64,000 nucleotides of DNA from contig OX387190.1 in NCBI GenBank assembly GCA_947561395.2, positions 9,356,858 to 9,420,857 of the forward strand, written 5' to 3'. The notes beneath the pieces are model-generated. The model was not told the origin of the DNA, did not search any database, and worked only from the letters and a program-made list of their open reading frames with translations. Positions 606 to 50,311 of this stretch are shown here, in pieces. Origin of the DNA: Buxus sempervirens. Taxonomy: Eukaryota; Streptophyta; Magnoliopsida; Buxales; Buxaceae. How positions within the stretch are numbered: position 1 is the first letter of the stretch; the number at the start of each line of letters is the position of its first letter. Made by a program: the position numbers and the translations under genes.

Positions 606-701
606 CCACTTGTGTGGGTTTTTGGGGTCACTATTGTGATAAGGCTATTGCCTGGTTTGTTTATTTCGCTATTGCGAGATTGCTATTGACACGGTTGTGT
701 C
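606..701 (+). repeat. Array of small hairpins with a recurring four-base loop
   Basis: Five perfect or near-perfect hairpins follow each other: CCAC/GTGG with loop TTGT (606-617), GTCAC/GTGAT with loop TATT (627-640), GGC/GCC with loop TATT (643-652), TCGC/GCGA with loop TATT (666-677) and GACAC/GTGTC with loop GGTT (688-701). The stems differ from one hairpin to the next, but three of the five loops are identical. The array lies between the palindrome cluster and the mini-frame of this LTR. Confidence 0.7.
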
Positions 702-1249
702 TTCGCGTATGCAGGTGTTATTGGGAGATATGTCCATCACCTGGTTTGGTTTTTCACCGTTGAGTGGGTTTAGAAATTACATGGATCCATAGATTAGCTA
801 ATAAGTGAAATGTCTTCTAGAGGGGTTTGAATTCTGTGTCATAGGCATTCCATCATCTCAAGGATGGTACCGCTCCTGGATTGGTCGGTCGCTACGTTAC
901 CGACTCCTGGATAGGTTGGGGCCGTACATGCTAACTCACTCCGGTTGTCGGTTGGGTTCTTTCGTTGGGTGTCGAACAGCCAGTTTGTAGGCTCGTCTGG
1001 TCCACCTATAAATCGGTTAGTTAGCATATTGGCACATGTCTACGTTCTTTCTCTGGTTTTCTATTTCATTAGTCCCATGAGGTTGAATTGTTTTTGTTTG
1101 TTAAAGTTTCATTTAATTATTATTATTCTATATTTTTGTTTTGTGATTAACCTGATTAAACATTGCATATTTTATTGTTACAAACTATTTGCATGACTAC
1201 TTACTGAGGGGTTTTTTCTCACATATTTGTTTTATCGGTTTTGTTTTAA

Positions 1250-1640: not shown

Positions 1641-3585
1641 AGTATTGTAGGTATGATTAAGAATACTAAGGAATTAATTTAGATCAATTAAACTCAAAGA
1701 AATAACACAAAAATCTGAATTTGTAAAATTTACACAATCTGCCGGAATTGTACTGACGCCGAGGGATCGCCTAGGCGACCTGTGCTAGGCGGCCTGTACA
1801 GAAATTACAAAAATTGGGGATTTTAAATACGACTGAATGTATAATAATTTTTTCTAGTAATTTAATCATTGTAACACTTTTATAAGGACAAAATTTAGGT
1901 GAAGAAATTTACTAAATTTAATTTGGTATTAAACCAATTAATTTGGAACCATAAGTACAGGAAAGAGCATAAAAGGGCCAAAATTCTAGGAAACAGTGAT
2001 TAGGAACAATTTCAACTTGTATTTATGTATTGAAATCATCTTCTAAGCCTTATTTTAGGTTTGTGGAATGTGCTGGAATTGAAAAATAACTGTAAATATA
2101 AAAGTCAATGCCTTAGGTTGAAAGTATAAAAATTTGGATCTTAATAGGTGGATAATTAGGTAAATTTAGGCAAGTCATGAATTACCTCTGCTTGTGCTTA
2201 GAGATATGAATATTTATCTGTCTAGAATCTTAATAAATATTGTTTCTGCTGTGTTTATGTTTATAAATTTTATTTAGGATATCACTTTGAGATTTGCATA
2301 TGTTTTCTCGCAAAAGGTTTTATTCTGAGTATGGAGATTGAGTCTTGGATTTTCACATGGAAATTTGATATCTTGATTAATGACATGAAATCTGATTATG
2401 GTTTATGGATTGGAATGTGGTATGGTGATTGTTCGTTTCTATTACGGTTGAGTGATACTGCTTCTTGTGGTTGAGTTGCTACTAGCTTTTACGCCAGAGA
2501 TGAGTAATCCTTTGTTGTAGAGATGTGTAATCCTCTACGTAAAGATGTTTAATCCTTTACGGTAAAAGTGTGTATGCCTTCTACAATAGAAGTGTGTGAC
2601 CTCTCGTTCTAAAGATGCAATTACTACGTGTTTTATTTGAGTCTCGTGGTCTGTGTAAAGTGGACATAGCTGATTATGAATCCATAGAATAAGCTAGATA
2701 GCTAAGGGGTATTTCTTTTGGGTTGAGTTACTCCCATGAGCGAGTGCGCTTTCTTTGCAAGTTAGTTTGCTCTAGAAGGTCCCGTGTCTATAGGGTCATT
2801 TCGAGCCTCGCTGGTGATTCCTGTACATGTGGATCAGTGGCCATCTCCATGTATTGATTCAGGTGCTGCATGCTGGTAGTTCATGCCAACTCTATGAGTA
2901 TGTGCGCAATAAGTCGATGACTACGGCTCTTTTCTTATGAGATGACTCGAGTTTGAGTGTTACGGTAGCTTCGCCAATAAGATGCATGGTGGCATAGCAT
3001 TGAAGAGTGTCTTTTCAAAAACTTATTTTTCTTTGTGAGTCCTGCAGTGACATAAGTGTTTTATTGCTTTTATCGAATTCATTTTCTTAAATACATATCT
3101 TGTTTCACATGAGTTATTTTATTGTTAAATTGACGTTGTTTTTATTTGTCTCCATTTATTGCTTATGTGTTGGTTTATTGCCTCCAAGCTGGTTGGATTT
3201 GAATTATTTGCTTTAGTATTGATTAATTTTATACCTCATGCCTACTTCTTAAATTAGACCATTTGTATTCCATGCACCTGCTACTTGCTGAGATGTATGT
3301 CTCACTCCTGTTTTCACCTATTTTTCAGGTTTGTTTGGAGAGATCGTCAAGATGGGGTAGAGAATTTATGGGTAGAATTGTAATTATTATTAAAGTCCAC
3401 ATCCTGAATAAATAGAATTTTCATTGTAAATTAATTTGAATTAAAGTGAATAAAATTGCCATAATTCCCACCATACTCTGATGTAGATAATTAATTTTAA
3501 AATTCCCGCATAAACTTAGTTTGTTCTGACCCATTTTACAGTAGCACCTCTGGTTTAGTTGTTAAACCGGATTCGGGTTGTTACA
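1641..3585 (+). mobile_element. Family-D-like LTR, middle and 3' parts
   Basis: The end (CACCTCTGGTTT... then GGGTTGTTACA at 3585) resembles the family-D LTR ends at 28610 and 32072. It has the D-type conserved stem-loop (3290-3303, GAGATGTATGTCTC), an acceptor-like TTTTTCAG (3321-3328) and a shortened mini-frame after it. A CGCCTAGGCG palindrome lies near 1767. It was probably host to the family-C LTR that ends at 1640. GTAGC follows the 3' end; the matching 5' flank is not in the window. Confidence 0.6.
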
Positions 3586-4632: not shown

Positions 4633-4640
4633 TATATAAG
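4633..4640 (+). promoter_or_regulatory. LTR TATA box
   Basis: TATATAAG lies about 110 bases into the family-C LTR. The same sequence is at the same distance in the copy at 30556 (30666-30673), so it is the likely start-site TATA of the family. Activity in this old solo LTR is unknown. Confidence 0.5.
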
Positions 4641-6577
4641 GTGAGCACCTGGTTATTGACCAAATATAATTTTAATATATTAATTATTGTGCTATTATAT
4701 TATTAGTAAGAATTAATTGTATTATAACCAAGGAGAATGAATAAGAGTTGGCCGAACCCAAGGAGAGTGGGTTGACCCAATGATTATTTGGTTTAAAGAG
4801 TAGTGGGTTTAAAGGTTTAGTTGTAAATTGGTTTAATGAAGGAAGGGCAGTTAAGTAAAAGACTTTAATTAATAAATTAACCTAGTTGTGCATGGAGTGG
4901 TAATGCACGTAGAGTTTAAAGACTCAAATAGAAAAAGCCGCTCGTTTTCTTCTTGTTTCCTATTTCCTTCTCCTAGTTTCCTTGTGATCAAAACTAAACC
5001 CTAAACAACTGTTGGAGCCGTCTTAGAGAAGAAGGAGGAGTATTTTCGTGCATAAAGAACTCATGTAAGAGCCATATAGATATAAGTTCTGTTCTGAAGA
5101 TTTTCGTTTGTTGAAGAGTCTTAAAAGTGTGATTTTTAACCCAGACGTGATCGAGGTTTGTTGGAATCGTTTGGCAAACTTTGGGGTGATATTTCGTGGC
5201 TCTTAGAAAAGATTTTAGTTCCTTAAACCAGGTAAGTAGTCCCTTGACACTTGCATAAAATCCAAATTCGTGTTTAGACGATATTCATGGTTATTCGGTG
5301 TTTTGATGCGTTGTTTTTGTTATTTATAATGTTTTATTTGTTGGGAATTATTCTAGCATGATTATAAAGTATTTTAGAATGATTTAGAATGGTTTTGATG
5401 CATTGAATATTGAGTTGTGGAATTTTTATGGAATTTCGCAAAGTTACGGATTTTTCATGTATCGAGCCGCCTGAGCAATCGCTCGAGCGCCCTATGTATA
5501 TATTCAAAACCCGAGAGCAATTTTACCCAGATTGTACTGCTACTAGAACAGTCGCTCGAGTGACCTACCCTGAATTACCTATTCTGTAAGGACAATCAAG
5601 TGCCCTTGGCCGCTCAAGCGACTAATCTGTCAGATTTTGGAAAACTTGTCTTTTCAACCTAGTTTTTACTAAGGAAGTGGTTCTATTCAATTTTAACCTA
5701 TGAACCATCAAGATTGGGGTATTTGGGAAGTGTTTGCACTGGCAGATGTTTAAAATTCAATTTTATAAAGATTTTGGATAAATGTTTCTAAAGAGGCACT
5801 TTTACTTTATTCTATTGTTCCAAAAGAATTTACTTTTAACCAAGGTTGGTTTTGTGAGTTCATACACCTATATTTGGGTGATATGAAGGTATTGTGTCCA
5901 TCGATGGAATCGATACACATTCGGGACATATTGGCCCGTTGAAACTTGGAGTTTTGGACATATGACTTGGTGCATTCTGTTTTGGTTTTGGGTCACTAGT
6001 GTGACGAGGCTGGTGCCTGATTTATTATATCCCGTATGGGCGGATTTGGTTACAGATATGGTTCTGTATTTTGGTGGGTGTTATTGAGAAGTATGTCCAT
6101 TACCCTGGTTGGTTTTCTCACTGTTGAGTGGGCTTAGCAGTTATATGGATTCATAGAATAGCTAGTAATTGAAATGTGTATTAAAAGGGTTTGAATTCTG
6201 TGTCTGAGGCATTCCATCATCTTGAGGATGGTACTACTCCTGGATTGGTCGGTCGCTATGTTACCCACTCCTGAATTGGTTGGGCCGTACATGCTAACTC
6301 ATTGTTGGGTTCTTCCATTGGTGTTGAATAGCCAGACTGCAAGGCGGTTGGTCCATCGTAATTCGGTTAGGTAGCATACTGGTATATGTCTACTTTCTTT
6401 ATCTAGTATACTATTTCATGAGTCCCATGAGGTGGACAAATTGTATTTCATTGTTGTCTTGAAACTTATTGTGATTATTCGTATTAAGCGTTGCATATTT
6501 TATTGTGATCAACTATTTGCATGACTGTTTACTGAGATGTTGTTTCTTACATTATTGTTTTATCGGTTTTGTTTTCA

Positions 6578-7727: not shown

Positions 7728-8629
7728 ATATACTTTGGTTTATCGAAGAACATGTTTAAACGAGAGTTTTCCGGTTGTTTGTGAATGATTTGATGTGTAA
7801 ACATGTAGTTTAATGTATTTGATTATCTGGAATAGTTTAGAGTATTTGAAGATGAAAACCCAAGATTTGGAAGTGATTTGAGATGTTAAAAGTTCGGGAA
7901 AAACAAGTCTGAAATTGAAAAAATCGCAAATTCCGGAAATTTGGAAAATATAACAAACACCTGCAATGACGCTCGAGTGTCACACCAGCACTAGTTATAA
8001 AGAGCGAACGTTCGTCACCACTCGAGCGCTATTCGAGGTGCTCCGCTTGTTTTTTTAAGTTTCGAAACCCGAGAGTTGATAGTTTTAGATAAACTGAACG
8101 CCCGAGTCATCACTCGAGCACCATCTTGAACGACCAACCCTCTAAGAATCTTTTCAAAACCTGTTTTAACGGACGCCTTTACGAGCGCCTAACGCCGCTC
8201 GAGCGCCCATAATAGTAATTGATATTTTGAGATCAACCTAGTTTTTCACTATAAAATTGTTTTTATTGATTTCCAACTCATGTACCAATAAGATTTAAGT
8301 GTTTAGAGATTGTTTGCACTGGCCGTTGATCACAACGAATTTTTATAAGGATTTTGGGTACGTTCTACTAAAATAGCTTTTATCCGAGTTTATCATTCCA
8401 AACTCTTTTCTTTTAAATGAAACTTGATTTTAAGGGTTCCTACACTTGTCTTTGGACTATCTAAACATGTTTTGAGCATTAAATGATTTTATTTAAACTC
8501 AAATTATATTTGCCTATTGAAACCATGATTTTGGACATGTATTTGTCTCCACGTATGTGGGTTATTGATCATGTATGTGACTTGGCGTATGCCTATATTA
8601 TTTATCGCGCGTATGCGGAATTTGTGACG
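7728..8629 (+). mobile_element. Diverged family-C-type LTR remnant
   Basis: The palindromic words CGCTCGAG near 7990, 8025 and 8198, and the downstream text, follow family C, but the start is missing. It ends where another C-type LTR begins at 8630. It contains the cleanest constant-loop hairpin array in the window (8549-8617). Confidence 0.5.
8549..8617 (+). repeat. Four hairpins, all with loop GTAT
   Basis: CCAC/GTGG (8549-8560), TCAT/GTGA (8569-8580), GGC/GCC (8584-8593) and CGC/GCG (8608-8617) all enclose the loop GTAT. The stem series matches the C-family arrays at 606-701 and 10066-10111, where the recurring loops are TATT and AGTT. The stems are therefore kept by position while the loop changes together within a copy. 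Confidence 0.75.
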
Positions 8630-10195
8630 TGTAAAATCCCAAATTTTATAAATAAATAATATCAATTGTTAAATAGACCAATCAAGTTATTAATATGCAG
8701 GAGATGAGGAATTGGTTCAACCCGAAGAAGTCCAAGTTGAACCAGAGGAAATCGGGGAACCAATTTAAGGTGAGTTCATGATTTTAGATTAGGCATAATT
8801 TTAATACAATGATTTGGTTATTGCTGTAGAAAGTAATGGATAAAAATAAAAATATAAGAATAAACAGAGAGGTGGTTGAACCCCATAGAGTGGAGCTTAA
8901 AAGAAGAAAAACAATAAAATAACCTAAAAACATCCATGCGACTGTTCACGTTCAAAGAAGTGAACAGCCGCCGAAACCAACCTCTTCTACTCTATTGTTC
9001 TTCTCTTCCTTTGTGTGATCAAAACCCTAATCTTTAATCAACTTGGGAGTAGACTTTTCAGAAGGAGAAAATGAGGATTTTCGTCCAAAGTTGCAGGTAA
9101 GAAGTAAGTTAGGAAAAAAATTTCTGTTTTGGGAGTTTAAACATGACTTTGAGTTCTTAAAGTGAGTTGTTTGATCCAGACAAGATAAAGGAGATATGGT
9201 TTCATTTGGATCTTCATTGGGGTGATTTTGCATTGCTGTTAGAGAAGGTTTTAGTTGCAAACGAGGTAAGTAGTCCCTTTAAAGATTGCATAAACAGAAT
9301 TTCGTATTTATTAAATGATCGTGGTTATTTGCATGTTTGATGATCCGTTTGCGTATTATATTCTGTTTTAATTGTTCTAACATTTTTATGAAGTAGTCTT
9401 GAATGATTTAGTATGGTTCTGATGCTATAGATTTCCAGTTTTTGATTTTAGAATGATTTACGCAACTTTTCAGAATCTGTATTTCTCAACAGGCCGCTTG
9501 TACCGCCGCTCGAGTGCCCATATGGGTCTCGAGAGAGTGTTCGCGGGCGCTCGATACCGCTCAAGCGATATTGAGGGTGCCCCGCCTGTGCTTTTTAATT
9601 TCCAGAAAACCCGAAAGTGGTTAAAACCCAGAAGGCGAACACCAAAAGCGTCGCTCAAGCGACTTCTCAAGCGACCAACCCTGAATTCATCTGGATTTCA
9701 TGTTGCCTATTCATGCACCTGATGCGGCTTGAGCGCCCTTTGACAGATTTTTAAATTTCTCCAACTAGCCTAGTTTTCACCACGAAATTGTTTTTATTCA
9801 ATTTCAACCAATGTACTATCGAGATTAGAGTGTTTAGAGATAGTTTGCACTAGCGGATTATTTAAATAATTTTTTATAAAGATTTTGGGTACGCTTTGAT
9901 AAAGAGGCTTTTTAACTTAGTCCCATTGTTCCAAACAATTCACTTTTAAGAGTTCCTACACCTGTATTTTAGTTATCTGAACGTATTTTGTGCATCGAAT
10001 GATTCAATACACATCCGGGACATAGTTGCCCATTGAAACCTGGAGTTTTGACATATGACTTGGTGCCACTTGTGTGGGATTTTGGGTCACAGTTGTGACA
10101 AGGCAGTTGCCTGGTTTGTTTATTCTGTAGTTTCGAGTTTGTTATTATGAACACAGTTGTATTTCCACGTGTGCGAGTGTTATTGGGAAATATCT
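8630..10195 (+). mobile_element. Family-C LTR, 5' part, fused to family-B sequence
   Basis: It starts TGTAAAATCCCAAATTTT at 8630 and follows family C through the donor-like AG/GTAAGT (9266), a palindrome (near 9505) and hairpins (10066-10111). Near 10195 it switches to family-B sequence without a TTACA end. The switch suggests a deletion or recombination between two LTRs. The 5' flank is TGACG; no matching right duplication is found. Confidence 0.6.
10066..10111 (+). repeat. Hairpin array with recurring loop AGTT
   Basis: CCAC/GTGG with loop TTGT (10066-10077), GTCAC/GTGAC with loop AGTT (10086-10099) and GGC/GCC with loop AGTT (10102-10111). The stems equal those at 606-652; the loops differ. 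Confidence 0.7.
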
Positions 10196-10713: not shown

Positions 10714-13376
10714 TGTAAAATCCCGAATTTTTAATCACATTAAAAATATTAGGTTTTGTTGTTAATTAGTTTAATTAATGAAAAATCTTAGAAATAGAGA
10801 AAAGGAAATTATTTAGAGAAAAATACTTAAAAGAATATAATATAGGAGAAACTATTAAAATGAACAAATTTTGTTAACTGAGTTTCATTGGTAGGATTGG
10901 TGGTTCGGTGGTGGAGCGAGCGAGGGTAATTTTGAATTTAATAATCATAATGGGTACAAAAATTGTTGTGAGCAAATGAGAGACTAATATTGGTAGTCCG
11001 GTATCGAGGCAAGCACCAAATCACGAGCTTAAGAGGTTGGCCATGTATGAAGTTTCGGTAGGCGAGCACGCAGGGGATTGTGAGATGAGTTTAGCATTGG
11101 AGCGCCATCGGAGGGTTATAAATAGGAGCTGTGTTTGGGGTTCTAGGGTTTTTCGCTCAAGACGGTTGGAGGAGGCTGTCGCGGCTGGAGATTTCAGAGG
11201 TTCGGCCGATTTGTCTATGCGGTCAGAAGAGATCGGAGGAGTCGGAAATCAAAAGTGAGCCGCAAGAGGATTTGGAGGTGGGAATTGCCGCTGGTTGTGC
11301 TCAGTCAAAGATTTGTGTTGCTGAGCGAGAGGGATTCTACAGCAGGTGAGTAGCATCGTTTTTAATCTGTTCTTTTTGGGTTTTGATTCTGGATTAGCCG
11401 AACTGCATGTTTTGGAAGGGAGTTATTTTCGAAAGGAGGATTTTGATGAGTTTTAGAGTCGTGATATGAAGTAGGTTAGATTAATTTCAAGTCATGATTA
11501 AATGTCTTTTGGGAATAGTAGAAACACAGGGGAAGTGTTACAGAGACTAGAAATCAAGGCATGTAGTTTTGGATTTAACAAAGAGTCGTGTTTCGCAAGG
11601 GGTATCTACTGAGCTACCGCCAACCCCTTTGCTCTCAGCGGTAGCTTGGCGCAAGCAAACTGTTGGATCCGCCAACCTATTTTTCAATCAGCGGTAGCTT
11701 GGCACGAGCGACAGTTGGATCCGCTGACCTCGCGCCAACTGCGCCGAGGTCAACTCACCCACCAAATACTACAGTGAGTTGCGGCTGATCATGTTGAGCC
11801 TATTTTTGATACTTTAGGGATTAAATCTCTTTGCCAAACCCTAGATTAGGATGTTAGAGGTATTTTAAGTTACTCAAAACCTTTGTAGATATAATTACAT
11901 GAATTGTGGGTTCTACAAGTCAAGTTTGGGGGAAACTGTTGGGGGTAACTTATTGTTTCAATTGCCATGAGTTAATGACTTAGTTTTAATTATGTCTTAC
12001 ATTCGTTTCCAGTTTATGAACTGTTTAATCTGGGTTTGCGTGATTTCAAGTGCTAAGCCGTATGTGTCAAATTATCTTGGTGCAAGTAGAAAAAAGAGTT
12101 ATTTTACCAGTGGACTTGTGTTTTGGGGATTAGAATAATTACTGAGTTTATATGAATTTCTGTTCTGGTCTGGAGGGACCTGTGATGAGGTTATGTGTCA
12201 TTATACATGATGATGGAAATGTTTGGTTTAATGTGATGTCAGTGTTGAGTTTATGCGATGGTTTTTCTGTTTTGGTTTAGCTTGCCCTGGATCCAGAGTC
12301 TAAGCTTAGTAATGTGATGTGTATGCTTTATTGGTGTAATGGCATGGCCATGGAGTGTTGCCACAACCGGTGTAGAGCAGCCAGAAACCCTGAGTAGGCC
12401 TGGTTGTCAATGCCGATACCCGGAGTAGGCCAGCATTGGATGACGATACCTGGAGTAGGCCGTCAATTCAGAGTATCTGATACCCTGAGTAGGCCGGAAC
12501 TGTGTACATGGAGGTGTAGATGTCGCTTTGACATGTTGATTAACCAATCTAAGCAACGACATGACATCGACCAATGTTGGTTTTTGACTTTATTTGACAC
12601 TATATGTTTATTCGCTGGTTTACTGGAATTGGTGGTTCACCGAATGTGGTTATCGGTTATTTGGTATTGGGATTCCTTCCGCCAATGTAGAGCAGCATCG
12701 TGACCCTGAGGGGTCAGTGTTGTCAATGCCGATACCCGAAGTAGGCTGGCATTGGAAGACGCTGCCATTTCAATATCCGAAACCCTGAGTAGGCTGGATA
12801 TACATTTGGAGACGTGGGCATGGCTATGATGTGACTTTATTGTTGATACTTGTTGGGACCCGAATTATATCTTTTGAGTTGTTGAACTATGATTTCTTCG
12901 ATATGTTGTTACCTGGTTATACGTGACTTTACGGTTATATGCACGATTTGATACCGACGTTATTGCTTGATTTATATGATGGATTTCCGCATTTTATATC
13001 ACATGGATTATTGGGATTCTATTGGATTACTCGGATTAGATGTGTTATCGTCATCGTATATGTGTTGCACCGTGGCATGTTTTTAGAACTGAACTAAATG
13101 GTTTTGTGCATGCATGTGCTACTCACTGGGATATTCATATCTCATTCCGTTTGTTTTTGTTTTGTTTTCAGCTGCTCTTGGAGAGGACGGTACTTGCGGG
13201 TAGTTCTTGGTCATGTGAGTTTTATTCCAGTTTGGGATTATTTTAGCGCAATCTGTTATATAGTTATTGTCGTATTCATGTTTTTCCTTCACTTTGATAT
13301 TGCGATCCTGTGTTTTATATTAACCTCCGAGGATGAGTTACGGTGTTATTTTGTGGCTCGGATCTGGGGCGTTACA
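10714..13376 (+). mobile_element. Family-A solo LTR inserted in a family-B LTR
   Basis: It starts TGTAAAATCCCGAATT and ends GGGGCGTTACA, 2663 bp. The flanks are AAGTG (10709-10713) and AAGTA (13377-13381). The minus-strand relative near 29995 reads straight through this point, so the empty site is known and the second flank differs from the first by one change. It is related to the LTR at 21738-24048 through shared GAGTAGGC hairpins. It holds a TATA box (11117-11124), a donor-like CAG/GTGAGT (11346), the stem-loop (13128-13143), an acceptor-like CAG (13169-13171) and only a short remnant of the mini-frame. Confidence 0.9.
12363..12800 (+). repeat. Hairpin array with constant loop ACCCTGAGTAGGC
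   Basis: The core GATACCCNGAGTAGGC, in variants, recurs at least six times. Its flanks pair and differ each time: ACAACC/GGTTGT (12363-12407), CAATGC/GCATTG (12408-12438), TGACG/CGTCA (12441-12465), AATGCC/GGCATT (near 12725-12755) and ATATCC/GGATAT (near 12774-12801). The pattern is a set of separate stem-loops, not an ordinary tandem repeat. Confidence 0.75.
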
Positions 13377-14568: not shown

Positions 14569-16388
14569 TGTGAGACCCCAGATTCCTAGACAATTGGCAA
14601 ACACTAAAAGGTATATTTTATTGTGAAGGTGAAGCAGGAGAAGCCCAGGCTTGACCCTTGGAGGCCAATCGGGTGGCTAGATCAATAATCTGTCAAAGGT
14701 GTAAAGGTGAGCAATCCCTAGAATATTAAATAAATTTATTATTGGGAGAGACGATGGCTAATGGTAATTCTGTATGCAGTGGAAGGAAAGTGGAAAGATT
14801 GTAAATACATATGTCTTGAGGGAGAAGGGCAAAATTGGAAGGTTGCCTTAGAGCATTTGGAAAAAAAATTTGTTAAGTGTAAGGGAGCCCACATTGCTCC
14901 ATACAAATGAAACAAAACCCCAACCCTCTTTTCCAACCACACTTTCTTATCCTCTCCCACTCACATCTCTTCTACTCCTCATTCTCATCATCCATCTTGT
15001 TAGTCAAGTGTGAGAAGAGACCATTGCAAGAAAGGAAGAAGAAGAACAAAAGGGGGCGATTTTTGTTTAGGTTTTCTTGGTGGGATTTGTGAAGAAAGCA
15101 ACCAAAGAGACCAAGGGGTGCTGCTCGTGGGTTGCATTAGGAGCAAGAAGACTTGCTTTGTTGCTTAGAAGAGGTAAGCAATACTCTCCCAACCTAGATT
15201 TTTTCTTTTTCCTCAAATTTGTATGCAATGTGGGAAAATTGGGGGTTTTATATAAATCTGATTTTCCTTGCAAATAGGTGAGGGATTTGTTAGGGGTTTG
15301 GTATGTAATAGGTAACCACGCATGCTAGACACAATTTAGAGACCAAAAACCATACGAAAGAGTGGGATTTGAAAAACCCTAGAGATTGGTGAAATTCAGA
15401 TTTTTCGCGACCTGAGAAATCGCCAAGGCACCCGAAGCAGAGCTTGAGCGAGATCTTAGGCGCTTGTTCATAAATTTAGTTAAGGCATGGACACTCGTTG
15501 GAGCTCGAGCGCCTCACCTATGTTTTTTTTTTAACTCAGAACCCGAGAGTTGTAATTTTTGGTTAAGCCAAGCACCCGAAGCAATGCTCGAGCACGCCTT
15601 CAAGCGCTTTCGGCAGATTTTAATAAATTTTGGATTTTAGCACAAAACCAACTACGGATCATTTTTATTTTAATCCAACTAATGTACAAGTAGGATTTAG
15701 GTGTCTAGGAAGTGTATACCCTGGAATTATCTCAAAATTCCAAATAACATAGATTTTGGTTACGTTTTACTGAAATAGGATTCCTAGAGAGTTTGCGTTC
15801 CAGATTGTTATAGAAGTAGGATAATTTAATACTACCACTTGGAACACCTTCCAAATGATCCTTGGAAGTAGAAAACCAAAGCCAAATTAAAGTTGTGTCT
15901 GTTTCCAAAGAGTTGGGGCCTAGGTTGCCCAAGTGAGGTGTGAAATGCAGGATTTAACACCATGGATATATTTTATTGTTAATAATTACTCTTGTAAGCA
16001 TGTGATCTATTTTAGGGCATTGACCCACTTGTTTAACATGAATTGTCTTATTAACGGTGCGAAAGCATGTGATACAAGATATGAAGGGCATTGGCCCAGT
16101 ATTTGGCAAATGTATGGAGGGCAGTGGCCCGGTTCCATGAGATATTGAAAAGGGGCTTGGCCCAAGATTGACTTGGGTAAGGCCATGGGCTACCCTTGAG
16201 ATTTTCATGCATGAGTGCATGATATACTTAATGTGGATTTGATTGAATGGAAATTTGCATAATGAACAATCTTAAGTTATGGATCCATAAATTTAAGTAG
16301 GAGTGTTTGTATATAATGCCATGACCAAGTACTATTGCTCTATTACTATATTGTTATATCATCCCGGCACCAGCAACATTGGTGGCCG

Positions 16389-16513
16389 ATGCCCATTGCT
16401 ACGGGGAATCGGCATGGATGCTCATACGTCAAGGGTAATCGATGTATGAATGCCTAATGTCAAGGGTAATCGGCATTGGATGCCTAGCCACCATGAGGAA
16501 TCGGTGAAGCTAG
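16389..16513 (+). repeat. Hairpin array with recurring loop AAGGGTAATC
   Basis: The stems are ATGCC/GGCAT (16389-16415), CATACGTC/GATGTATG (16423-16448), AATGTC/GGCATT (16456-16477) and CTAGCCACC/GGTGAAGCTAG (16484-16513). Each encloses a loop ending in GGGTAATC, GGGGAATC or GAGGAATC. The mismatches are mostly G-T pairs, which an RNA helix tolerates. Confidence 0.75.
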
Positions 16514-21906: not shown

Positions 21907-23321
21907 CTTAAGGAAAATTAGGTTTTAGTTTTTTTTGAATACTCGTATACTCTCGTAACTAAAGACGATTGGCGATTGCGGCTACCTGATTGGCGATCTA
22001 GGTTTTCGTTGGGAAGAGAAGGGAAACTATGAGAGATCCAACTGGTTTGTTGTGTTCGTGATCAAGGGTTTCAGAGGGTTTTTCCTCTTGCGACCAGAGG
22101 ATCATCTGGGGGGCAATAGCAAACAGGCGGACGACTGTTGGTGATCGGCCGTGGTTCGAGTATTTATTGTTGCTGGGATATAAGCGTGCAAGAGGTGAGT
22201 AGCATCGTTTTAAAACTGGGTTTTCGTATTTATTCGTGAGTTTAATCTGGATGCATGTGTGTTTTCTGGAAGGAGTTCGTCCGAGCGTGAGTTTCTTTAG
22301 TATTGAATGTTGATAAATAAAAATGTGTTGGAATAATTTCAAAAGTGGTTTAAATGTCTTCTAGGGATATTAGGAGACTAGGAAAATTGTTACAGAGAGA
22401 AAAATTCCAGCAGTCGTGTAGATCTGGAAATAACAGAGAGTCGAAAATCCAGGTTAGTATCCACCGAGTTGGAGCTAACTGGCGCCAACTACAGGTAGTG
22501 GGCACAAGGATTTTTCCCCTATCCACCGAGCTCGCGCCTAGTTCGCGACTAGCTCGCGCGGACTTGATTTCTATCTGCTCATCTCGCACGAAACGTGTGT
22601 GAAGTTCGTGTCTAGCTCGCGCCCACTCGATTTAAGTAAGCGCATCCTAATTATTTTAACCCACGACCTATCCGCCGACCTTGCGCCTAGCGCTGGAGGT
22701 CAGCGCATGGTCCTAAAATTGGCCGAAGTAGAGTTTTGACCCAATTAAGCTGGTTTTGATGATTATGAGGGTTCAAGCACTTGACTAAGGATTTGTTTAG
22801 GACTATAGAAACATTATTCCCTATTAAATTTTCTTTGAGAATATAACTGGAAATTTTTAGAAGCATCCAAGATTATTTCGAAAGGGCAAATGATAGATGA
22901 TCTCATTATACCTAACCCTAGGAGTCCCTGATTTAGGTTCCTGTTATTATATACTGTACTTTAATGCGAATTTATTTCATCTGGTTTTTACTTGATTGCA
23001 AGTTTCTAAAATGTATTGTAAAGATTCCTTTTGGTGTGTGTAAAGGGTTTTATTACCAATGAACATGTGTTGTGAATTGTGAGTAACTACTGGAGATACA
23101 TGAGGTACTGTTTTGGTCCAAAGGGACATGTGGTGAACTGGTTGAGTTATACATGATGTTGAACGTGTTGTTTTTTTTTTAAGTCAAAGTTGTGATTTTA
23201 CATTGGTTTACTGTTTTGGTTTAGCTTGATTTGGATCCATGCTTAAGCTTAGTAATGTAATGTTATTGTTGGTTGTTGAAATTGCATGGCCTTGTGTGTT
23301 GCCACGACCAGTGTAGAGCAG

Positions 23322-23444
23322 CCAGAAACCTTGAGTAGGCCTGGTTGTCAATGCCGAAACCCGGGGAGTAGGCCGGCATTGGATGACGAAACCCTGAGTA
23401 GGCTGTCATTTCAGAGTTTCCGAAACCCTGAGTAGGCCGGAACT
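23322..23444 (+). repeat. Hairpin array with constant loop AAACCCTGAGTAGGC
   Basis: Four stem-loops with different stems around one loop: CCAG/CTGG (23322-23344), AATGCCG/CGGCATT (23350-23380), ATGAC/GTCAT (23383-23409) and AGTTTCCG/CGGAACT (23415-23444, one bulge). The related solo LTR array begins at 12363. Confidence 0.8.
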
Positions 23445-23722: not shown

Positions 23723-23800
23723 ATACTCGAGGTGAGGCGACTATTGGGGTAGATCCGACTGAGACTTATAGGGAGGAAGACTACTATTACATTCCTTAGA
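23723..23800 (+). other. LTR mini-frame after an acceptor-like CAG
   Basis: The frame begins at the G of CAG (23721-23723), reads DTRGEATIGVDPTE and ends REEDYYYIP before TAG. It lies 400 bases upstream of gag, in a position where a spliced leader would carry it. Confidence 0.45.
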
Positions 23801-24201: not shown

Positions 24202-25130
24202 ATGGCTGGTAGAGGCAGACGTACGAGGGCTATGGAATACCCAGAGGAGGTTATGCCGCAGGAGTAGCCACCTGCACCACCACGAGGGGCCCCACCGCCA
24301 GTGGAGGACATTTGGGCTGCTGTTGGCTCACTTACCCACCTCCTTGCGATGGAAAGGGAGGAGAGGATGAGTCAAACTGGGAATGGGAATGACCAGCGGA
24401 ATGGTCATGGAGCTGCAGTGGATCAACAGCGGGTGAGAGAGGAGTTGTCCTTGAGGGACATCGATCAGTTCAGGAAGCTGACTGCCCCGCCGTTTCATGG
24501 AGTTCCAAATCCGTTGGAGGCGGAGAGCTGGGTGGCCAGAGTGGAGCGCATGTTTGATACTATGGACTGTCCGGAGGACCAAAAGGTCAAATTGGCTACC
24601 TTCACCTTAGAGGGCGAGGCTCAGCATTGGTGGCAGTCATTGCGGAGACAAGTTGTAGATGGGATACAGATGACTTGGGAGCAGTTCAAGCAAGTCTTCT
24701 ACGAGCAGTATTTCTCTGCAGAAGTGAGGTTGCAGAAGGAGAGAGAGTTCATGGATATATCTCAGGGGTCTTTGACCATGGCACAGTATGAGGCTCGGTT
24801 TGCGGTTCTTTCTCGATTTGCTCACCATATAGTGCACGATGAGCTGAGGTGCACCCAGCATTTCGAGAGAGGACTGAGGGCAGACATTAGGCGCATGGTC
24901 TCGGTGTTGATGTGCACCAAATATTCTGATTTAGTGGGGAGAGCACTGTGGGTTGAGAGAGATTCGAGACTCAGGGACTGAGCAGAGAAGAGTCAGAGCG
25001 TAGCCGAGTGTTACAGAGACACGGAGGGTCCCGGATAGGGACAAGAGGCCGAGGATCAATTATGGACAGAGGGATAGGAGAGGTTCTAGAGGTTGCTTTA
25101 GTTGCAGCCGATTTCACATCCAAGGTCCAT
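24202..25130 (+). pseudogene. Gypsy gag (capsid), broken
   Basis: Gag forms the particle that packages the element RNA. The ATG at 24202 begins MAGRGRRTRAMEYPEEVMPQ, then a TAG stops the frame near 24268. After it the same frame is open to 24981 and shows the plant gag core: PPFHGVPNPLEAESWVARVE, EGEAQHWWQSL, FKQVFYEQYFSAEVR and KEREFMDISQGSLTMAQYEA. A second stop at 24979-24981 and a frame change precede the zinc knuckle, which lies in the frame starting at 25133. The minus-strand gag at 28616-29649 is a relative with the same motifs. Gag and pol cannot be read as one protein. Confidence 0.9.
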
Positions 25131-25132
25131 GT

Positions 25133-30555: not shown

Positions 30556-33500
30556 GTAAAATCCCAGATTTTATTAACTAGACTAATTGGTTAATATCAT
30601 GCAGGAGATGAGATTTTGGTTCAACCCGAAGGAGTTCAAGATGAACCAGAGATGATAGGAGAGCCTATATAAGGTGAGTTCCTAATTATTGACTAAATGT
30701 AATTTTAATACAATAATTATTGTGATATTATATTATTAGTAAGGATTAATTGTATTATAATCAAGGAGAATAAATAAGAGTTGGTCGAACCCAATGATAG
30801 TGGGTTGACCCGAGGGTTGAGTTGGTTTAAGATGATTTGATTTAAGTTGGTTTAATGAAGGAGGGCATTATGGTAAAAGCCTTTAAAACAATAAAATAAC
30901 CTAGCTAATAGTTGCATGAGCAATTCACGTCCAACTCAAAATAGAAGTAGCTGCACGTTCTATTGTTTCCTATTCTTCCTCTTAGTTCCTTGTGATAAAA
31001 AATAAACCCTAAACAACTTGTTGGAGCCATCTTGGAGAAGAAGGAGGATTATTTTCGTGCATAGAGAACTCAGGTAAGAGCCATATAGAGATAAGTTTCT
31101 GTTTTGGAGATTTTCATATGTTTGAGAGTCTTAAAAGTGTGATTTTTGAACCCAGACGTGATCGAGGTTTGTTCGGATCATTTGACAGACTTTGGGGTGA
31201 TATTTCATGGCTCTTAGAGAAGATTTAAGTTCCTAAAACCAAGTAAGTAGTCCCTTGACGCTTGCATAAAATCTAAATTCGTGTTTAGACGATATTCATG
31301 GTTATTCGATGTTTTGATACGTTGATTTCGTTATTTATGATGTTTTATGTATTGGGAATTGTTCTAGCATATGTATAAAATATTTTAGAATGATTTCGAA
31401 TGGTTTTGAGGCATTGAATATTGAATTGTGGAATTTTCATTGAATTTCACAAAGTTACAGATTTTTCACGTATCGGGCTACCTGAGAAGTCGCTCGAGCA
31501 CCCTATGTATATATTCAAAACCTGAGAGCAGTTTTACCCAGATTGTACTGCCGCTAGAACAGTCGCTCGAGCGACCTACCCTGGATTAACCTGTTTTGTA
31601 AGGCCGATCGAGCGCCCTTGACCGCTCGAGCGACCAGTCTGTCAGAATTTGGAAAACTTGACTTTTCAACCTAGTTTTCATTAAGGAAGTTGTTCTATTA
31701 AATTTTAACCTATGTACCATCAAGATTGGGGTATTTGGGAAGTGTTTGCATTGGCGGATGTTTAAAATTTAATTTTACATAGATTTTGGGTAGATGTTTC
31801 TCAAGAGGCACTTTTACTTGATTCTATTGTTCCAAAAGATTTTACTTTTAACCAAGGTTGATTTTGTGAGTTCATACACCTGTATTTGGGTGATATAAAG
31901 GTATTGTGTGCATCGATGGAGTCGATACACATTCGGGACATATTAGCCCGTTGAAACCTGGAGTTTTGGACATATGACTTGGCACATTCTGTTTTGGTTT
32001 TGGGTCACTAGTGTAACAAGGCTGGTGCCTGATTTATTGTATCCCGCATGGGCGGATTTGGTTACAGATATTGTAACACCCCAGTTCCAGGTCCATTCCC
32101 AAACCCGAGGTGTTATGGTAATCAAACAAAGCAACTAAAGAAACTGGACAATTTAAAACTTTTTCTAACTTTAAAATCAGAGTAAATGCGGAAATTTAAA
32201 TTTAAATTCTCTTTATTTATCAACAACCATAATATACAAATGCTTTCAATTCCATGAACAATCTACAACTATATAAACTAATTATCTACAATTAGCCCAA
32301 GCTTTGACGTCCTTACCAAGAGTACCTGAAAAATGGGGTGAAACCGGAGTGAGAATAAATCTCAAAAAGTAGCAACGCGCATGATGTAAAACAGTCCATA
32401 ATCTTACAATACTAGTCATGAGGTGAACAATAAAACCAAAACCACAATAATACGATAATACAACAATAACAAATCACCAATCCAAAACAAGCACGTGTGA
32501 CCAATAGGATTCGTGAACTGAAACCACTTAATAAGAATATTCTTGCCCCCATAGTTCGCCACATCATGACTTACATGATAAATGGAGCCCGCACCTGCAG
32601 TCACTACCATCTCCTCCGTCAACCATCAATGCGGACCACCCATGCATGGGTTGGCGAGTACAATCCAAAGTCCAAAATAAAATCCCATCATGGGTACCGC
32701 TTCCACGGAAACCATACCAATCCGATCAAAAATTAATTGACCCACGACAAACACGTCTAATACCAGTGCAAGTGCAAGTCACAAGTGATCCTCAAGTACG
32801 GCCAAATCATAGCTCCAATGTGTGAGTCACAAGTAACCTACCACATGACCAATATAAAGCACGTGAAAATCGATGTATCATTGAAGCATGCGGATGGTAA
32901 CCTGAAAAATAAAACAAAACCGTTTACCGATAGCAACCTCGGCTAAGACCAGGCCACACCTGCAGCAGCCAAGGATTGCTGCCTACATCGCCCGCATCTG
33001 CTAGTACAACGGATCGCATACTGAGGAGTTCCGAACAAGAATAACTTACCAGCCAATTCCCTTTCACTTCCTAGCTAAACTATGGATCCATACTAAACAT
33101 TGCCCACTAGACATAACTCACAATCAAAACCTTGAATAACTCAAAAACACAATATTCAGTGATAAACCTCATACCAATAATCACAACCATGTCCCAAGTG
33201 CTGTGTCCAGCAATAATTTCCAAAACCATGGTGTCCAACCATAAGATGTTCAAAATAACAAAGTTCCAGATCATATAATAAGAAAATACGAGAGTTTACA
33301 CAATTTTTAAATAATAGGTTCAGATTTGAGTCGTGTTAGTGTGAGCATACTTAGTTTATCTTCCTAACTCAATATTCGGGTTATTCTTTATTTCCTACAA
33401 AGTTTACTCCCAATCCTACACTTTGGTTTATCTTAAAATCTTTACTTCTAAATCCAACTAATACCCTTAAATCTCCAAAACCTTTTGGGTTATGTTATTG

Positions 33501-34402
33501 ATTCTTTCCAGAAGTTAATTTAAGTCTATTATAACTTGTTAGACTAGGTTTCATACCTAGAATCCTAATGAAAGTGGTTTGAGTGCATATGGTTTACCTT
33601 AACTAGTCTACTTTGATTCTTATTAAATTCATTGTTCCAAATAATTATCCTTTTATCCAAATTTAATTCTGTCACTTCCTACATCTCAAATTACCCTATT
33701 TACAGGTGTTACAACATTAAAATTCCAAGAAAAATCATTAAAAATTGAATCTGGGCACAAATCCCTAGTTTAGAAATTTCTGACAGTTGACCGCTTGATG
33801 GGTCGCTCGGGCGACTGCTCTAGTGGTTGGGGTTTCAGGTTCTGTTACTTTTCAAAAGCCTATCGCCTGATGAAACGCTCAAGCGGTGTATCGAGCGCTC
33901 CAGCTATAACTTGTTTTTCTTCAACTTACGGAAATTTTAGAACTTTTTATACATACTATTTACTTGTTTTGATTCTAAACATCTAATTTCCATCCTAAAC
34001 TAGTTCTGGGACAACCCTAGACTAATCCCATCATCTTTCCACTTATCTTTGAGTTTCTTTTTAAGTTTAACTCATCATGATCAACCTTTTCTTGGTTCCT
34101 ATAAGAAAGTTAAATCACCAAACAATTCCTTATACACAAATAAGCTTTTTCCCATGAAATCTAACTTAAAAAACAATACGATCAAACATCAAAATTACGA
34201 GAAAACATGCAGTTCCTCCAGTTTCAAGTGTTTGCTACTTGCCTTATGATGAACCCAGATTTTTCAAAACTTCGCCTGTGCCCTTTTTGACACTCTACCA
34301 CACTCCTTTAGACTTCTCTAATTTAGATATCCACCGTTCAGTTAGAAGTCTTCCATGAGTAAAACGAAACCCTAAAATTTCAGCCCATTCCAACGGTTAG
34401 AT

Positions 34403-34596
34403 TGTAACGCCCCAAACCCATAGCCAGCAAGATATTGTCCGCTTTGGGCCCACAGGCCCTCATGGATTTGTTCTTAAGGATAACACGAGAAAACTTCCCA
34501 GGGGTCACCCATCCTAGCAGTGCTCCCACCCGAGCACGCTTAACTTTAGGGTTCCCAGGGGATTTAGTCCCGTGTTGCTCCTTAAAAGGCCTCTTG
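34403..34596 (-). mobile_element. Cassandra-type LTR, 3' portion, inverted
   Basis: It is the reverse complement of 35672-35865 with about 10 percent differences. On the minus strand it ends GGGGCGTTACA at 34403. It stops at CAAGAGGCCT (34596-34587), words that also fit the adjoining pol codons. Confidence 0.85.
34485..34560 (-). ncRNA. 5S rRNA-derived segment, minus strand
   Basis: On the minus strand, AAAGTTAAGCGTGCTCGGG and CTAGGATGGGTGACCCCTGG match the internal promoter region (A and C boxes) of plant 5S rRNA. The first 35 or so bases of a full 5S gene differ, so it is a derived LTR segment and not a ribosomal gene. Confidence 0.75.
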
Positions 34597-35425: not shown

Positions 35426-35427
35426 AA

Positions 35428-35504: not shown

Positions 35505-35506
35505 TA

Positions 35507-41913: not shown

Positions 41914-44900
41914 TGTAAGATCCAAACTCCCTAATCAATGTTTAAGATATAATTGTAATATTATAACTGACACAGGGTTTGTGTTATGAAGGTGATCCTT
42001 CAGAGGTCTAGATTTGGAATTATGAAACAAAGAGTCCTTAAATTAAGAAGGGACCTTAAGGTGAGTTTAATTGTAATTTGGAGTTTAATTAGAGTGTTAA
42101 TAAACAATTGAAACCATTTAAAATTATATAAATGAGGAATAATGGATGTTTTGTAAATATAAGGAGAAATTATAAGTATGATGGCATAATTGTAAATATA
42201 TGTTGCTATAATTTTAAATGGCATAAGAGTAAATATAATGAATTAATGGAGAAGGATAGGGAGGTAATTAGTTTTAAATATTAAGGGTAATTTGGGGAAT
42301 GAGGAAAAATTGATAGAAACCCATCTAAAGCCTAATTCGTATGGAGCATTTTTTTTTTTAGGCTTTTCTCTTCTCCATCTCTTCTCATGAACAAAACCCT
42401 TCTAAGTAAGCTTAAAGCGGTGTATTTGTTGAACAAAACCCTTCCAGCTTGGTTCTTCTTGGTGGGGATTTGTTGTACTTGGAAGAAGAAAGGTTGCATT
42501 CAATGGGAAAGTATACTAGAAGTCTAAAGTGGAGTTTAAGTTGATGATTTCAAGCTTGTAGAGAAGAACCAAGCTGGAAACTTGAAGAAATTGGTGTTTT
42601 AATTTCAAATTTGTGTTGCTCAAGCCAAGAAGAGTGTGAATATAGATTCAAGGTAAGCAACACCCTTCTAAGTAAACTTTTGATTTAGTTTTCTTGAGTT
42701 TAAAATGAACTTTCAGACTATTTCTGCTAAAATAGTAGTTTGGGTGATAAAATGATCCATTTTGTATGTATTTGTGTTCTTTTGTTAGGGATAAGTTAAG
42801 GAAACCAAACGGTATGCTTCCTAGGTGTATCCTACAGATTTTGGACTCTTGAGAATGCAAATTACTGCAATTTTGGATGTTAGAATTTTAACCATTGAAA
42901 TATGTTCAGATTTGGGAATTTTGTTGTATAAGTGTTTTGGTTTTATGTTAGGTTACAATTGGAGATTTATTGGTGATAATTAATGATGTTAGAGGGCGAT
43001 AGAGAAATCTGGAAGTATTAAAAAAAATAGGTAGTTTAGGAAACAAGCTTTGGAAGTTTACAAATGGAAACAGTCCTGTTAACTGTTTCAAAATCGCACA
43101 ATATTTCGTTGACGTTCGAAGACATGAAAACAATACGTAAAAATTCAAGCTAATAGCCTAAAATTTAGTTTAAGGTGTTTATAATTGAATGGAGGTGATT
43201 TGGGACAGATTGGACCTCAGGATTTTGCAAGAAAAATCAGGGAAGTTAGATGGTTCTCATCCTAGTGTTGTAAGACTGCTTGTAACCACCTATAGTAAAA
43301 TGGTTATAACTCTCTTTAAGAAACTTCAAATTTAATTCTGTTTGATGCGTTAGAAACTAGATTTGTAGATCTTTCTATTGGTGTATGGCTTACTAGTTAG
43401 TTCTTCATCAATTGAATCAGGTTTGACACTTTATAAAGGTCAAAAACCAGATCTGCAGTTTGACTGCATTTTAGGAAAAAGTGTATGTTAGCCCAAATTT
43501 TCATACAATTATTCTAAGGTTTGTAAATAAACAAAGATTTAAATGTGATTACTATTGTTATAAGTTGCTGTTATATGAGGTTGTAATTTATTTTAGATGC
43601 ATATGAGTATAGCATGTTTATAAAATGAGATAAATTTGATGTTGTTATGTTTTTGCATAAGAAAACATTGTTTGAACTTTCTACACGAAATGAATGACTT
43701 AAGATTAAATGTATGGAAGCATGAGGGCATAGGCCCATGATTTGAAAATGAGATGTAATCCATGGGGCAATGGCCTGGATAATTATGAATTAGTGGCCCT
43801 ATGGGCTGTATTTGAGAAACATAATTCTATTAACATGGAAATGATTGTATGAGATACAAAAGAAAAGGAAAGGCATAAAATGTTAACTTAAGATGCGGAT
43901 CCGTATAACTTAAGTGGGCGTGTTTGAGTACAAATATCGTGGCCTTTGATATTATTGTTTCATTGTACTTTGGTTCCATTGATTCTGGCTTGAGGCCGAT
44001 GATTCTATTGAATTCCAGCATCAAGGGGAATTGGTGGCTGATGCCCAAGCTTCATGTGGATGCCCTACGCTAAGGGGAATCGACGTTAGGATGCCCAATA
44101 CCAAGGGGAATCGGGTTGGATGCCTAACCTACATGGGAAACCTGTAGAGTTAGATGTGGTCACGACATTTTACAATTAAACCACCTAGTTAACCAAATAA
44201 ATGGAATGAGACCAAAGTGGCTGTTATTGCATAGAGTTAATATGTTTTAATGTTAGTTCTATTGATTAACGAAAGCTTGAAAGCATGTTAGAAATTCTTT
44301 GTTTATAATCATAATTGAAGCAAGCTATGAATGCCTTTGTAAGCATGTGCTGAATATTATTGGTGATCTTTAATGATATATATTAGCATGTTGCATTGAA
44401 TTTTGATATAGTGTTGTATATCATGAATTTAAAAAGATATGGCAAGAACTGTGATTTTAAAAGCATGCATAGTGTTGCTTACTAGGACTTTAGTCTCATC
44501 AACCATGATTTATCAATTTTGTTTTAGATCTGTCGACATCTGGAGCAAAAGCCAATAAGGGGAAAGAGAAAGCTTTGGGATACAGAGAGGAGGACTTCTT
44601 CAGGCCTACTAGGACTACCTAGATACATGTATATGCTATTTTGGATTTATGTAGATAGAGAGAGAGAGAGAGATGTGAGATACTTAGATGACCCACTTTT
44701 GTAGAACTATGTATATAACCTTTATTGAGTTCTTTTGCTACATTTTCTTCATGGCTTATAATTTAAATGCTTCTTTTATAGTTAGCTTTACTGTACACAT
44801 ATATTGTATGTTGCACCCACGTTTATCAGGTATTTTATACACTTGTTTATCGTCCATTTTCTAGGCGTTATATACGCCTTTGTGCAAAAAAAATTACTAT

Positions 44901-48359: not shown

Positions 48360-50311
48360 ATAAAATCATCAAGTAATCTCCTCATGAGAATTCAAAACAA
48401 ATACAAGTATATGTGTTTTCACAGGATTCATGAAATATGACTACTTTGAAAAGTTAAGACCTAGTACAACAAATCCAATCTAAGAATAAATTGCAACGTA
48501 TCCGGCCATATCATCACCCTCATGGTGGAATAAGAGACCTCACCCTCATGGTGGAAATGGAAATTGCTGCAACTCATCCTTCATGGAAGGCCTCTTCGTC
48601 ATGGATGAAATGCACAAAGGAGCTAGACTTAATCCTAGCAAAGATAGACAGACTTCGCTATTAGCTAAACTATGGATCCATAACAAGCTAAACCCGCTAA
48701 TAGCATAATCAAATCAAAACCGATGGTCCTCATGACCAACAAGTGTATAATGCCTTCATAGCAAAGAATTCATAACCCTCATGACCAATAATCAATTAAA
48801 ATGACCCTCACGATCAAATCAAGTAAATACTGCCTTCTTGGCAAATCACTCCCTCGTGGAAAAAAACCAATATTACTCAAAATTCGATAAATAAACTCAA
48901 TCTACCCAAATCTGTCGAAAATAGTTTCTTACTGTTCTAGAACTCAAAACATCCTTAAAATATCCTTTTGCAAGTGTAGAATCATCAATTTACAAGACAA
49001 ATCATATTTAAGATCAAATTTCCCTCTTGAAAATCAAAACATAAGTTATTTTAATAAAACATACCCAAAACATTAAATAATTTTCATAAAATTATTTGGC
49101 CTCTGAAAACAATTTCTAAACACTCAAATTTTATTTATACATGTGTTGGATTCCTCCAAAAATCCTTTTATATTTGAAAACTAGGTGTTTTTCTTGAAAA
49201 TCAGAAAAATTAGTTGGGTCGCTCACCAGATCGCTCAGGCGGTCTGGGACGAGTGGCTTATCAAAATTTTTATATTACGGTCACTCAACAGATCGCTCAG
49301 GCGATCTGTGATAGGTAGCTTAACAAAACCAAAACATCCAACGGTCGCTCAGGCAGTCTGACTAGCGATCTAAAACAAAAATCAACGCTTACCAAGGGTG
49401 CTCAGGCAACTTGACGAGCGGTCGTATAACTTCACAAATTCCGGAAAATTTACAGAAATCTGATTTTCTCATAAATCGTCAAAAATAACTTTTCATCAAC
49501 AAGAATCAATTTCAACCTTTCCAAAATCAATATAAGTATATTATAAAACATTCCAACAAATCTAACACGATCAAGTTAAGGTTTTTCATCCAACTCTAAA
49601 GTAATCAGAAAACTATACGTGAAGAACAAGATGTGTTTTTCCTACTGTTAAAACTCAACCAAATACGTCCAAATCATCCTCAACATATTCTTCAAACATC
49701 CAAAAATCCAAAAACATGATATTTGTCGTCTAATCAGTAAAACATGCAAATTTTCCCCAAGAGAAAGGTTGCTACTTACCTCTTGTTGCAAACAGAACCA
49801 ACGAAACCTCACACTTGATCTCCCCTTCAACACCACAGCAAAAACCCATGAAAAATTCCTTCTTTTCCTTCAGCCGTCCAAGGCAAAAATAGGGTTTCTT
49901 CTCTCCTAGTCATCCAAGCAAAAGAATAGAATTTTTAGATTTTCTCCAATATATCCCCACGATCACTTCTGTTCTTATTAGAAGTTCCTTATTTTTAGAA
50001 ACTCTCTAAAGCAACCTCTCATAAACACACGCATACCCACTCTAATAATTTATTTAATTTTATTTTAATAACATGATCCAATACATGCCACTACATCATG
50101 CTCTATATACTTAACCAATATAATTAAAGATATTTACATAATGCCTTCCTTACCTCATAACTCATGATCCGACCGTCGGATCGACACCAAATTCTGATCC
50201 ATCTCCTCCACATGATCACCTATTAGATTCAAGCCTCTGATTAGCAATTACTCCTAATAATTATAGATTAGAAATTTAATAATTTAATTCTAAAAAATTC
50301 AAGGTATTACA
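48360..50311 (-). mobile_element. Family-E LTR, 5' part, minus strand
   Basis: On the minus strand it starts TGTAATACCTTGAATTTT at 50311. It has a donor-like AG/GTAAGTAGCAAC near 49779, palindromic words of the CGATCGCTCAGGCG kind (49215-49420) and a hairpin array (48515-48859). Confidence 0.7.
48515..48859 (-). repeat. Hairpin array with recurring loop CTCAT or TTCAT
   Basis: Plus-strand stems: CACC/GGTG twice (48515-48527 and 48541-48553), CCTT/AAGG (48578-48590), TTCGTC/GATGAA (48595-48609), TGGTC/GACCA (48724-48738), TGCC/GGCA (about 48831-48843) and TCC/GGA (about 48849-48859). Most loops are CTCAT, TTCAT or a near match. Confidence 0.7.

Follow-up and report, generated by a model that had tools for sequence, protein, structure and literature searches.

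Rows of hairpins with a common loop and differing self-complementary stems in the LTRs of Ty3-type retrotransposons of Buxus sempervirens

Bacterial small RNAs of the CsrB type carry repeated hairpin loops bearing GGA. The barley retrotransposon BARE is an element of the Copia type. Little is known of the means by which LTR retrotransposons of plants select their own RNA for packaging. For BARE, conserved dimerisation and packaging signals have been reported, and packaging in plant elements other than BARE is described as fairly little known (PMC3735527). Small RNA viruses make use of multiple dispersed packaging signals, according to the work of Twarock and colleagues (PMC6281560). An LTR survey notes that stem-loops are one cause of the conservation that remains in long R regions (Benachenhou et al. 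2013, PMC3601003). A literature search, judged from titles and the starts of abstracts, returned no description of hairpin arrays with shared loops.

In the window, as the whole analysed stretch of 64,000 nucleotides is termed, the LTRs of Ty3-type elements carry rows of three to six hairpins, which have a common loop and differing, self-complementary stems (Table 1). LTR families C, A and H all show the design; the one copy of family F shows it on a small scale and family E in part, while family D (20299) has one hairpin and no array. The preliminary description had ascribed the same design to A, H, E and D, which stands for the first two, applies in part to E and fails for D. No matches of at least 90 nt were found among families A, C and H by self-BLAST, and none above the gathering score in Rfam across the whole window.

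Table 1. Positions of hairpin arrays and associated features in the window.
Feature	Position	Strand	Details
Family C (type C1) hairpin array	606..715	+	H1 606-617, H2 627-640, H3 641-654, H4 665-678, H5 688-701, H6 ~703-715
Family C (type C2) array	5992..6068	+	GTCAC.TAGT.GTGAC, AGGC.TGGT.GCCT, CCGT.ATGG.GCGG, TACAG.ATATGGTT.CTGTA
Family C (type C3) array	8549..8619	+	Four hairpins, all with loop GTAT; fifth cut at ~8630
Family C (type C4) array	10066..10177	+	H1 TTGT, H2 and H3 AGTT, H4 decayed, H5 AGTT (10150-10163)
Family C (C2 type) array of interrupted copy	32004..32055	+	
Family A array 1	12378..12500	+	Four hairpins, loop AWACC..GAGTAGGC
Family A array 2	12701..12801	+	Downstream duplicate, stems partly different
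Family A array, second window copy	23319..23443	+	
Family H array	16423..16513	+	Two hairpins with loop AAGGGTAATC, one with ATGAGGAATC
Family H array, second window copy	44015..44153	+	Loops AAGGGGAAT(C/T) and TGGGAAACC
Family F array (single window copy)	2496..2560	+	Loop ATGNNTAATC; stems AGAG/CTTT, GTAGAG/CTCTAC, GTAAAG/CTTTAC
Family E hairpins	48515..48737	-	CACC.ATGAG.GGTG twice, GGTC.ATGAG.GACC; array-like in part only
Palindrome CATGGATCCATA adjoining C array	780..791	+	
Palindrome counterparts	6144, 12287, 16278, 20218, 23230, 33081, 36645, 43895, 48671, 2675		6144 with one core mismatch; 2675 is TATGAATCCATA
Predicted TATA box TATATAAG of C2 LTR	4633..4640	+	110 nt past predicted LTR start, 1.36 kb 5' of array
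Predicted TATA box TATAAATAG of family A	11117..11125	+	1.26 kb 5' of A array at 12378

The stems of family C follow one another in the order CCAC, GTCAC, AGGC, CCGC, (A/G)ACAC and CCGC, and enclose 4-nt loops which as a rule end in T. The hairpins first described at 606-701 are present letter for letter (CCAC.TTGT.GTGG, GTCAC.TATT.GTGAT, AGGC.TATT.GCCT, TCGC.TATT.GCGA and GACAC.GGTT.GTGTC), with TATT at H2, H3 and H4, and are followed by a sixth, weaker hairpin at 703-715. The array recurs in the window at 5992, 8549, 10066 and 32004 and in many genome copies. Loop GTAT was confirmed in all four hairpins at 8549-8617, and AGTT, proposed for the stems of the copy at 10066, was found at H2 and H3 but not at H1, which keeps TTGT, or in the decayed H4. 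All arrays derive from one genome (676.5 Mb assembly), in which searches returned 2193 (C1), 472 (C3), 1650 (C4) and 1497 (C2) candidate copies, 40 being scored per query. The 88 C copies examined, picked by similarity to the window queries, comprise 16 C1, 12 C2, 30 C3 and 30 C4 copies, all of which could be placed. The commonest loop is TATT in C1 (H2: 10/16; H3: 14/16; H4: 9/16), GTAT in C3 (25/30 at each of H1 to H4; 25/29 located at H5) and AGTT in C4 (H2: 26/30; H3: 15/30; H4: 20/29 located; variants AGAT, AGGT and AATT), while C2 carries TGGT at H2 (10/12) and H3 (12/12) and instead ATGG at H4 (9/12). The fifth GTAT hairpin of the C3 sister copies is interrupted in the window copy at ~8630 by an LTR start (TGTAAAATCCCAAATTTT, 8624-8640), and a C4 LTR therefore appears to have been inserted into the C3 array. 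A different insert (32075-36550) splits the C5 LTR copy shortly 3' of its hairpin array.

In family A, the stems CAGCCAG, CAATGCCG, ATGACG and GTTTCCG enclose the 15-nt loop AWACCCNGAGTAGGC, and the second, downstream array has stems such as ATATCCG/CGGATAT. The sample comprises twelve copies, ten from the genome (2739 candidates) and two from the window, and one array found blind (L038). The family H stems CATACGTC/GGCGTATG and CTAACGTC/GGCGTTGG enclose AAGGGTAATC, and the 23 sequences of this family, 21 of them testable, consist of 20 copies read out of the 39 other rows, the two window copies and L127 (927 candidates). Apart from the L038 array and the sites fetched by way of a palindrome described below, L127 among them, the A and H copies were likewise picked by similarity to window queries. 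A minus-strand reading of family H was dropped, as the TGAG..CTCA module at 16740 shows that the sense strand is the plus strand. A second set of hairpins with alike stems, GGGC.NNTG.GCCC, lies 5' of the H arrays (16017-16180 and 43725-43810); own pairing ranked 17/24 and 6/6 in these, and since the stems are alike the test is uninformative for them.

The LTRs have TG..CA ends, an adjacent primer-binding site and a polypurine tract. The LTR of L070 begins with TGTAAAATCCCAG behind the purine tract AGGAGGGGAGAA, that of L069 ends with GGGGCGTTACA, followed by AGATGGTATCAGAG with a TGGTATCAGAG primer site, and the A-family LTR terminates before TGGTATCAAAGC at 24053. Positions 24268-27442 of the window encode the Pfam domains Retrotrans_gag, RVP_2, RVT_1 and RT_RNaseH in Ty3 order. 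The LTRs of L069/L070 flank gag-pol DNA, as do those of L071/L072, and this DNA is ~70% identical to the region at 24268-27442. From the look of their LTR ends, the elements presumably belong to a Tekay/Del-like lineage. The C2 LTR extends from ~4524 to ~7013, and a box like its predicted TATA box is also found near the LTR start in C5 and L072. With predicted TATA boxes ~1.3 kb upstream of the arrays in C and A, each array is probably transcribed twice, once as part of the leader and once more close to the 3' end of the RNA. In C1, a TATA-like site is located at 1007, 3' of the array, and would place the C1 array upstream of transcription. The array was at first favoured as a U3 enhancer on the strength of this site, a reading set back by TATATAAG near the LTR start in C2, C5 and L072 and by TATAAATAG upstream of A.

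Several further features were observed in the window. A module of CTTACTGAG/CTTGCTGAG followed by CTCA is found at 1200, 3284, 16740 and 23674, a few hundred nucleotides 3' of the A, C, F and H arrays, and often forms a hairpin (GAGATA.TTCG.TATCTC at 23674). By eye, the A (23740-23800) and C1 (1265-1335) LTRs contain an apparent short conserved peptide ending in EEDYYYIP-stop and EEDYFIPV-stop, respectively, and a 401-aa open frame on the minus strand (56624-57829) resembles a portion of a gene for a chloride channel.

A palindrome around GGATCC lies close to the A, C, E and H arrays, as GAATCC close to that of F, and also occurs in D. With at most two mismatches, TATGGATCCATA has 13 sites in the window against 4.15 expected, four of which (1942, 3975, 23623 and 45412) are not among the recognised counterparts. 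In the genome, WTATGGATCCATAW was counted 859 times against eight for the reversed control, an excess that partly reflects mere copy number. Eight sites were fetched from the 50 listed among these 859: four lie beside arrays in H or C LTRs (L127, L130, L132 and, with a truncated array, L131), one (L129) is possibly in another LTR family and three are in none that was recognised. The palindrome arms pair no better with their own partners than across families (3608/20000 permutations as good), leaving a dimerisation hairpin with co-evolving arms unsupported, and as the arms show no co-evolution a role in kissing-loop dimerisation is only a lead. Outside this genome, no relatives were found among viral contigs, and seven prokaryotic matches to a palindrome pattern were taken as chance.

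The proposal that the stems change and yet stay paired was examined by scoring all left arms of an array with all right arms, so that own pairing could be compared with reassigned pairing; A and H units were located by loop alone and C hairpins via stem templates. Own pairing ranks first in all four family A arrays permuted, out of twelve sequences (720, 24, 5040 and 5040 permutations), with a mean score of 16.7 (58 units) against 8.6 for crossed arms (240). In family H, it is top in 20 of the 21 arrays with at least three units (23 sequences), each allowing only a small number of permutations (6 in three of four arrays), and it is also top in family F (3 units, 6 permutations). Under one loop definition, own pairing ranks only 4151/40320 in the single window copy of family E. 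In family C, own pairing is top in 15/16 C1, 11/12 C2, 19/30 C3 and 18/30 C4 copies (scored over five hairpins, or over three for C2), with means of 8.3 to 11.1 against 4.8 to 5.5 for crossed arms, a test that is partly circular because templates of paired stems served to place the hairpins. The last C2 hairpin (TACAG/CTGTA) was excluded from this test and from the base-change and mismatch counts given below. With longer arms, own pairing is top in 6/16 C1 (six hairpins), 12/12 C2, 20/29 C3 with five hairpins and 1/1 with four, and 0/29 C4 with six hairpins and 1/1 with five; H4 and H6 of family C share a stem, so that their arms are swappable in the permutation. Two sequences cut at estimated offsets, L065 and L028, were left out of the analysis.

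Paired changes were observed in homologous stems. The second pair of the first A hairpin is A-T in 12/12 copies and C-G in one (L038), a transversion on both sides, and hairpin 4 of family H reads CTAGC..CACC/GGTG..GCTAG in one window copy and CTAAC..CTACA/TGTAG..GTTAG in the other. Deamination would not easily explain these changes. It could account for changes from G-C to A-T, as seen in the fifth pair of H5 in family C (G-C in 12/16 C1 copies; A-T in 10/30 and G.T in 19/30 C4 copies) and in neighbouring family F stems, which differ yet pair (GTAGAG/CTCTAC and GTAAAG/CTTTAC). Since own arms in A, C and H mostly score above reassigned ones, and since paired changes occur, the sequences support selection on base pairing in the arrays, in keeping with the original proposal.

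Loops were likewise thought to change together, and between subfamilies they do. Among loop pairs of H2 to H4 in all 88 C copies, 150/262 are identical, against 45.5 with loops dealt among copies (0/2000 shuffles as high). Within C1 an excess persists (31/48 against 23.8 expected; 5/2000), within C4 it is weak (47/88 against 41.7; 56/2000), and no excess identity was found within C3 (62/90 against 63.6) or C2 (10/36 against 10). Loop sharing in family C is thus mainly a property of the subfamily, with about five loop states. Copies with mixed loops exist (L098, L099 and L101-L104), H1 and H6 often retain a loop of their own, and H4 of C2 differs from its neighbours. Conversion of loops within an array had been offered as an explanation; it would be unlikely where the loops have 4 nt and their stems are dissimilar, and possible for the 15-nt A loops.

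A comparison with shuffled sequence had been proposed at the outset as a check. Exact-loop pairs with different stems number four in the window, three of which lie in C arrays, and 20 shuffles gave 0.25 on average. A loose blind scan was without power, returning 47 pairs where 15 shuffles gave 20-40, and no triples where they gave 0-2. A strict blind scan of the window gave five repeated-loop pairs against none in a mirror-repeat control; the four with loops of at least 8 nt are all in A and H, and the fifth has a short loop. In six other loci (~59 kb), the same scan gave no long-loop matches against three in the mirror control, and four short-loop matches against none. In a further 218,768 bases of C copies and flanks (loops 8-15 nt), it gave two matches, both falling in one unselected A array (L038), against two in the mirror control. 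Core hairpins of the form C.NNNT.G with two more pairs number 285 in the 9,017 nt of the 88 C arrays (31.6 per kb) and 53 in the remainder of the window (0.83 per kb), the arrays having been located partly via these stems.

The array structure is therefore well supported, and its reader is a matter of interpretation. Tentatively, we suggest that the arrays may be multivalent loop-binding RNA platforms read by the element's own Gag, and hence packaging signals. The stems would need only to pair, the signal residing in the repeated loops as three to six equivalent binding sites. These would be read by the zinc-knuckle Gag of the element, and the genomic RNA would carry the row twice, in its leader and close to its 3' end, as a multivalent signal for packaging. 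Were the reader to drift in a lineage, the loops of its row would change together while the stems stayed paired.

The same anatomy and structural evidence would fit an RNA platform for a host factor that exports the long leader from the nucleus, stabilises it or promotes its translation. In some retroviruses, the constitutive transport element recruits an export factor, and the predicted leader is very long, itself calling for control of export or translation. A single host protein should, however, keep a single loop, whereas A, C, F and H have different loops and, within C, the loops shift among C1, C2, C3 and C4. Since each family has loops of its own, and those of a subfamily shift together, Gag would be the preferred partner, and a host factor is considered somewhat unlikely. 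A more specific form of the Gag reading holds that each lineage has its own loop code on a row of interchangeable hairpins, in which the shared loop co-evolves with the Gag of that lineage, the loops switching in concert and the stems remaining free to vary while paired. We regard this form as rather doubtful; if true, packaging would stay private to each lineage even though the genome holds thousands of related elements.

The arrays might alternatively act in the DNA, the loops being transcription-factor sites and the inverted arms favouring cruciforms or dimer binding. The arrays are short palindromes beside the larger GGATCC palindrome, CAGTTG in C4 fits what we take to be a MYB-type core, and the TATA-like site of C1 lies downstream of its array. 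Folding is moderate (mean sense z-scores of -1.9 to -3.7 in the C types and -0.3 to -2.8 in the window arrays), and as the antisense strand often folds equally well or better, a point in favour of a role in DNA, folding energy does not settle the strand. Binding to duplex DNA, however, should have no need of non-palindromic loops of 10-15 nt within varying but paired arms, and predicted TATA boxes lie upstream of the arrays in C2, C5, L072 and A. The pattern of base changes also argues against it. A C>T change in a stem leaves G.U in the sense RNA, whereas G>A leaves A.C; in the C stems, C>T affects 121/1325 cells and G>A 85/1355, while in the flanks the rates are even (142/2080 and 268/3798). 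Internal stem cells of family C hold 123 G.T against 64 A.C. Internal G.T is the majority form in A h1 pair 5 (12/12), H hairpin 2 pair 2 (16/21), H hairpin 3 pairs 2 and 7 (19/20 each) and C3 H4 pair 4 (28/30), and no internal pair among the scored stems has A.C as its majority form; the outermost scored pair is fixed as A.C in two cases (C3 H2: 29/30; C2 H4: 10/12). These signs weakly favour RNA, the G.U excess being small, the copies related and the C arrays rich in T and G, and action at the DNA level is judged unlikely. A mutational origin, with templated repair or strand switching in reverse transcription making palindromes and copying loops without selection, could match the arms and in principle homogenise the 15-nt A loops, but is highly improbable given that the C arrays hold their place and most stems across subfamilies differing by 20-30%, that 4-nt loops between unlike stems should offer too little homology, and that arrays with long loops are seldom met elsewhere, a single unselected one having turned up in 218,768 bases.

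A lineage-specific loop that is repeated on stems free to vary would provide a signal for packaging or export that can be put to a direct test. Loop arrays would furthermore allow RNA-protein co-evolution to be traced over hundreds of copies per family, and would serve as an RNA-based landmark in LTRs that are hard to align.

Arrays of repeated loops are absent from the available text of the LTR survey (PMC3601003). BARE is, like the elements described here, a plant LTR element, and the accessible part of its report makes no mention of a hairpin array (PMC3735527). Ty1 and retroviral leaders resemble the arrays in being structured leaders of LTR elements with hairpins, near which, in the present case, lies a palindrome that could kiss; in Ty1, however, a pseudoknot contains two hairpins whose motifs are complementary (PMC5454406), whereas the present arrays have three to six equivalent loops and the palindrome arms show no co-evolution. 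The signals of small RNA viruses comprise several sequence-structure motifs with a common coat-protein recognition motif, much as the arrays do with their shared loop, but the LTR hairpins are clustered within ~100 nt and known from their sequence alone (PMC6281560). An RNA of the CsrB type binds several CsrA dimers simultaneously, as the arrays might bind several copies of their reader; it is a free bacterial small RNA titrating a regulator, whereas the arrays are a cis element of a retrotransposon (PMC5027483, PMC7652899).
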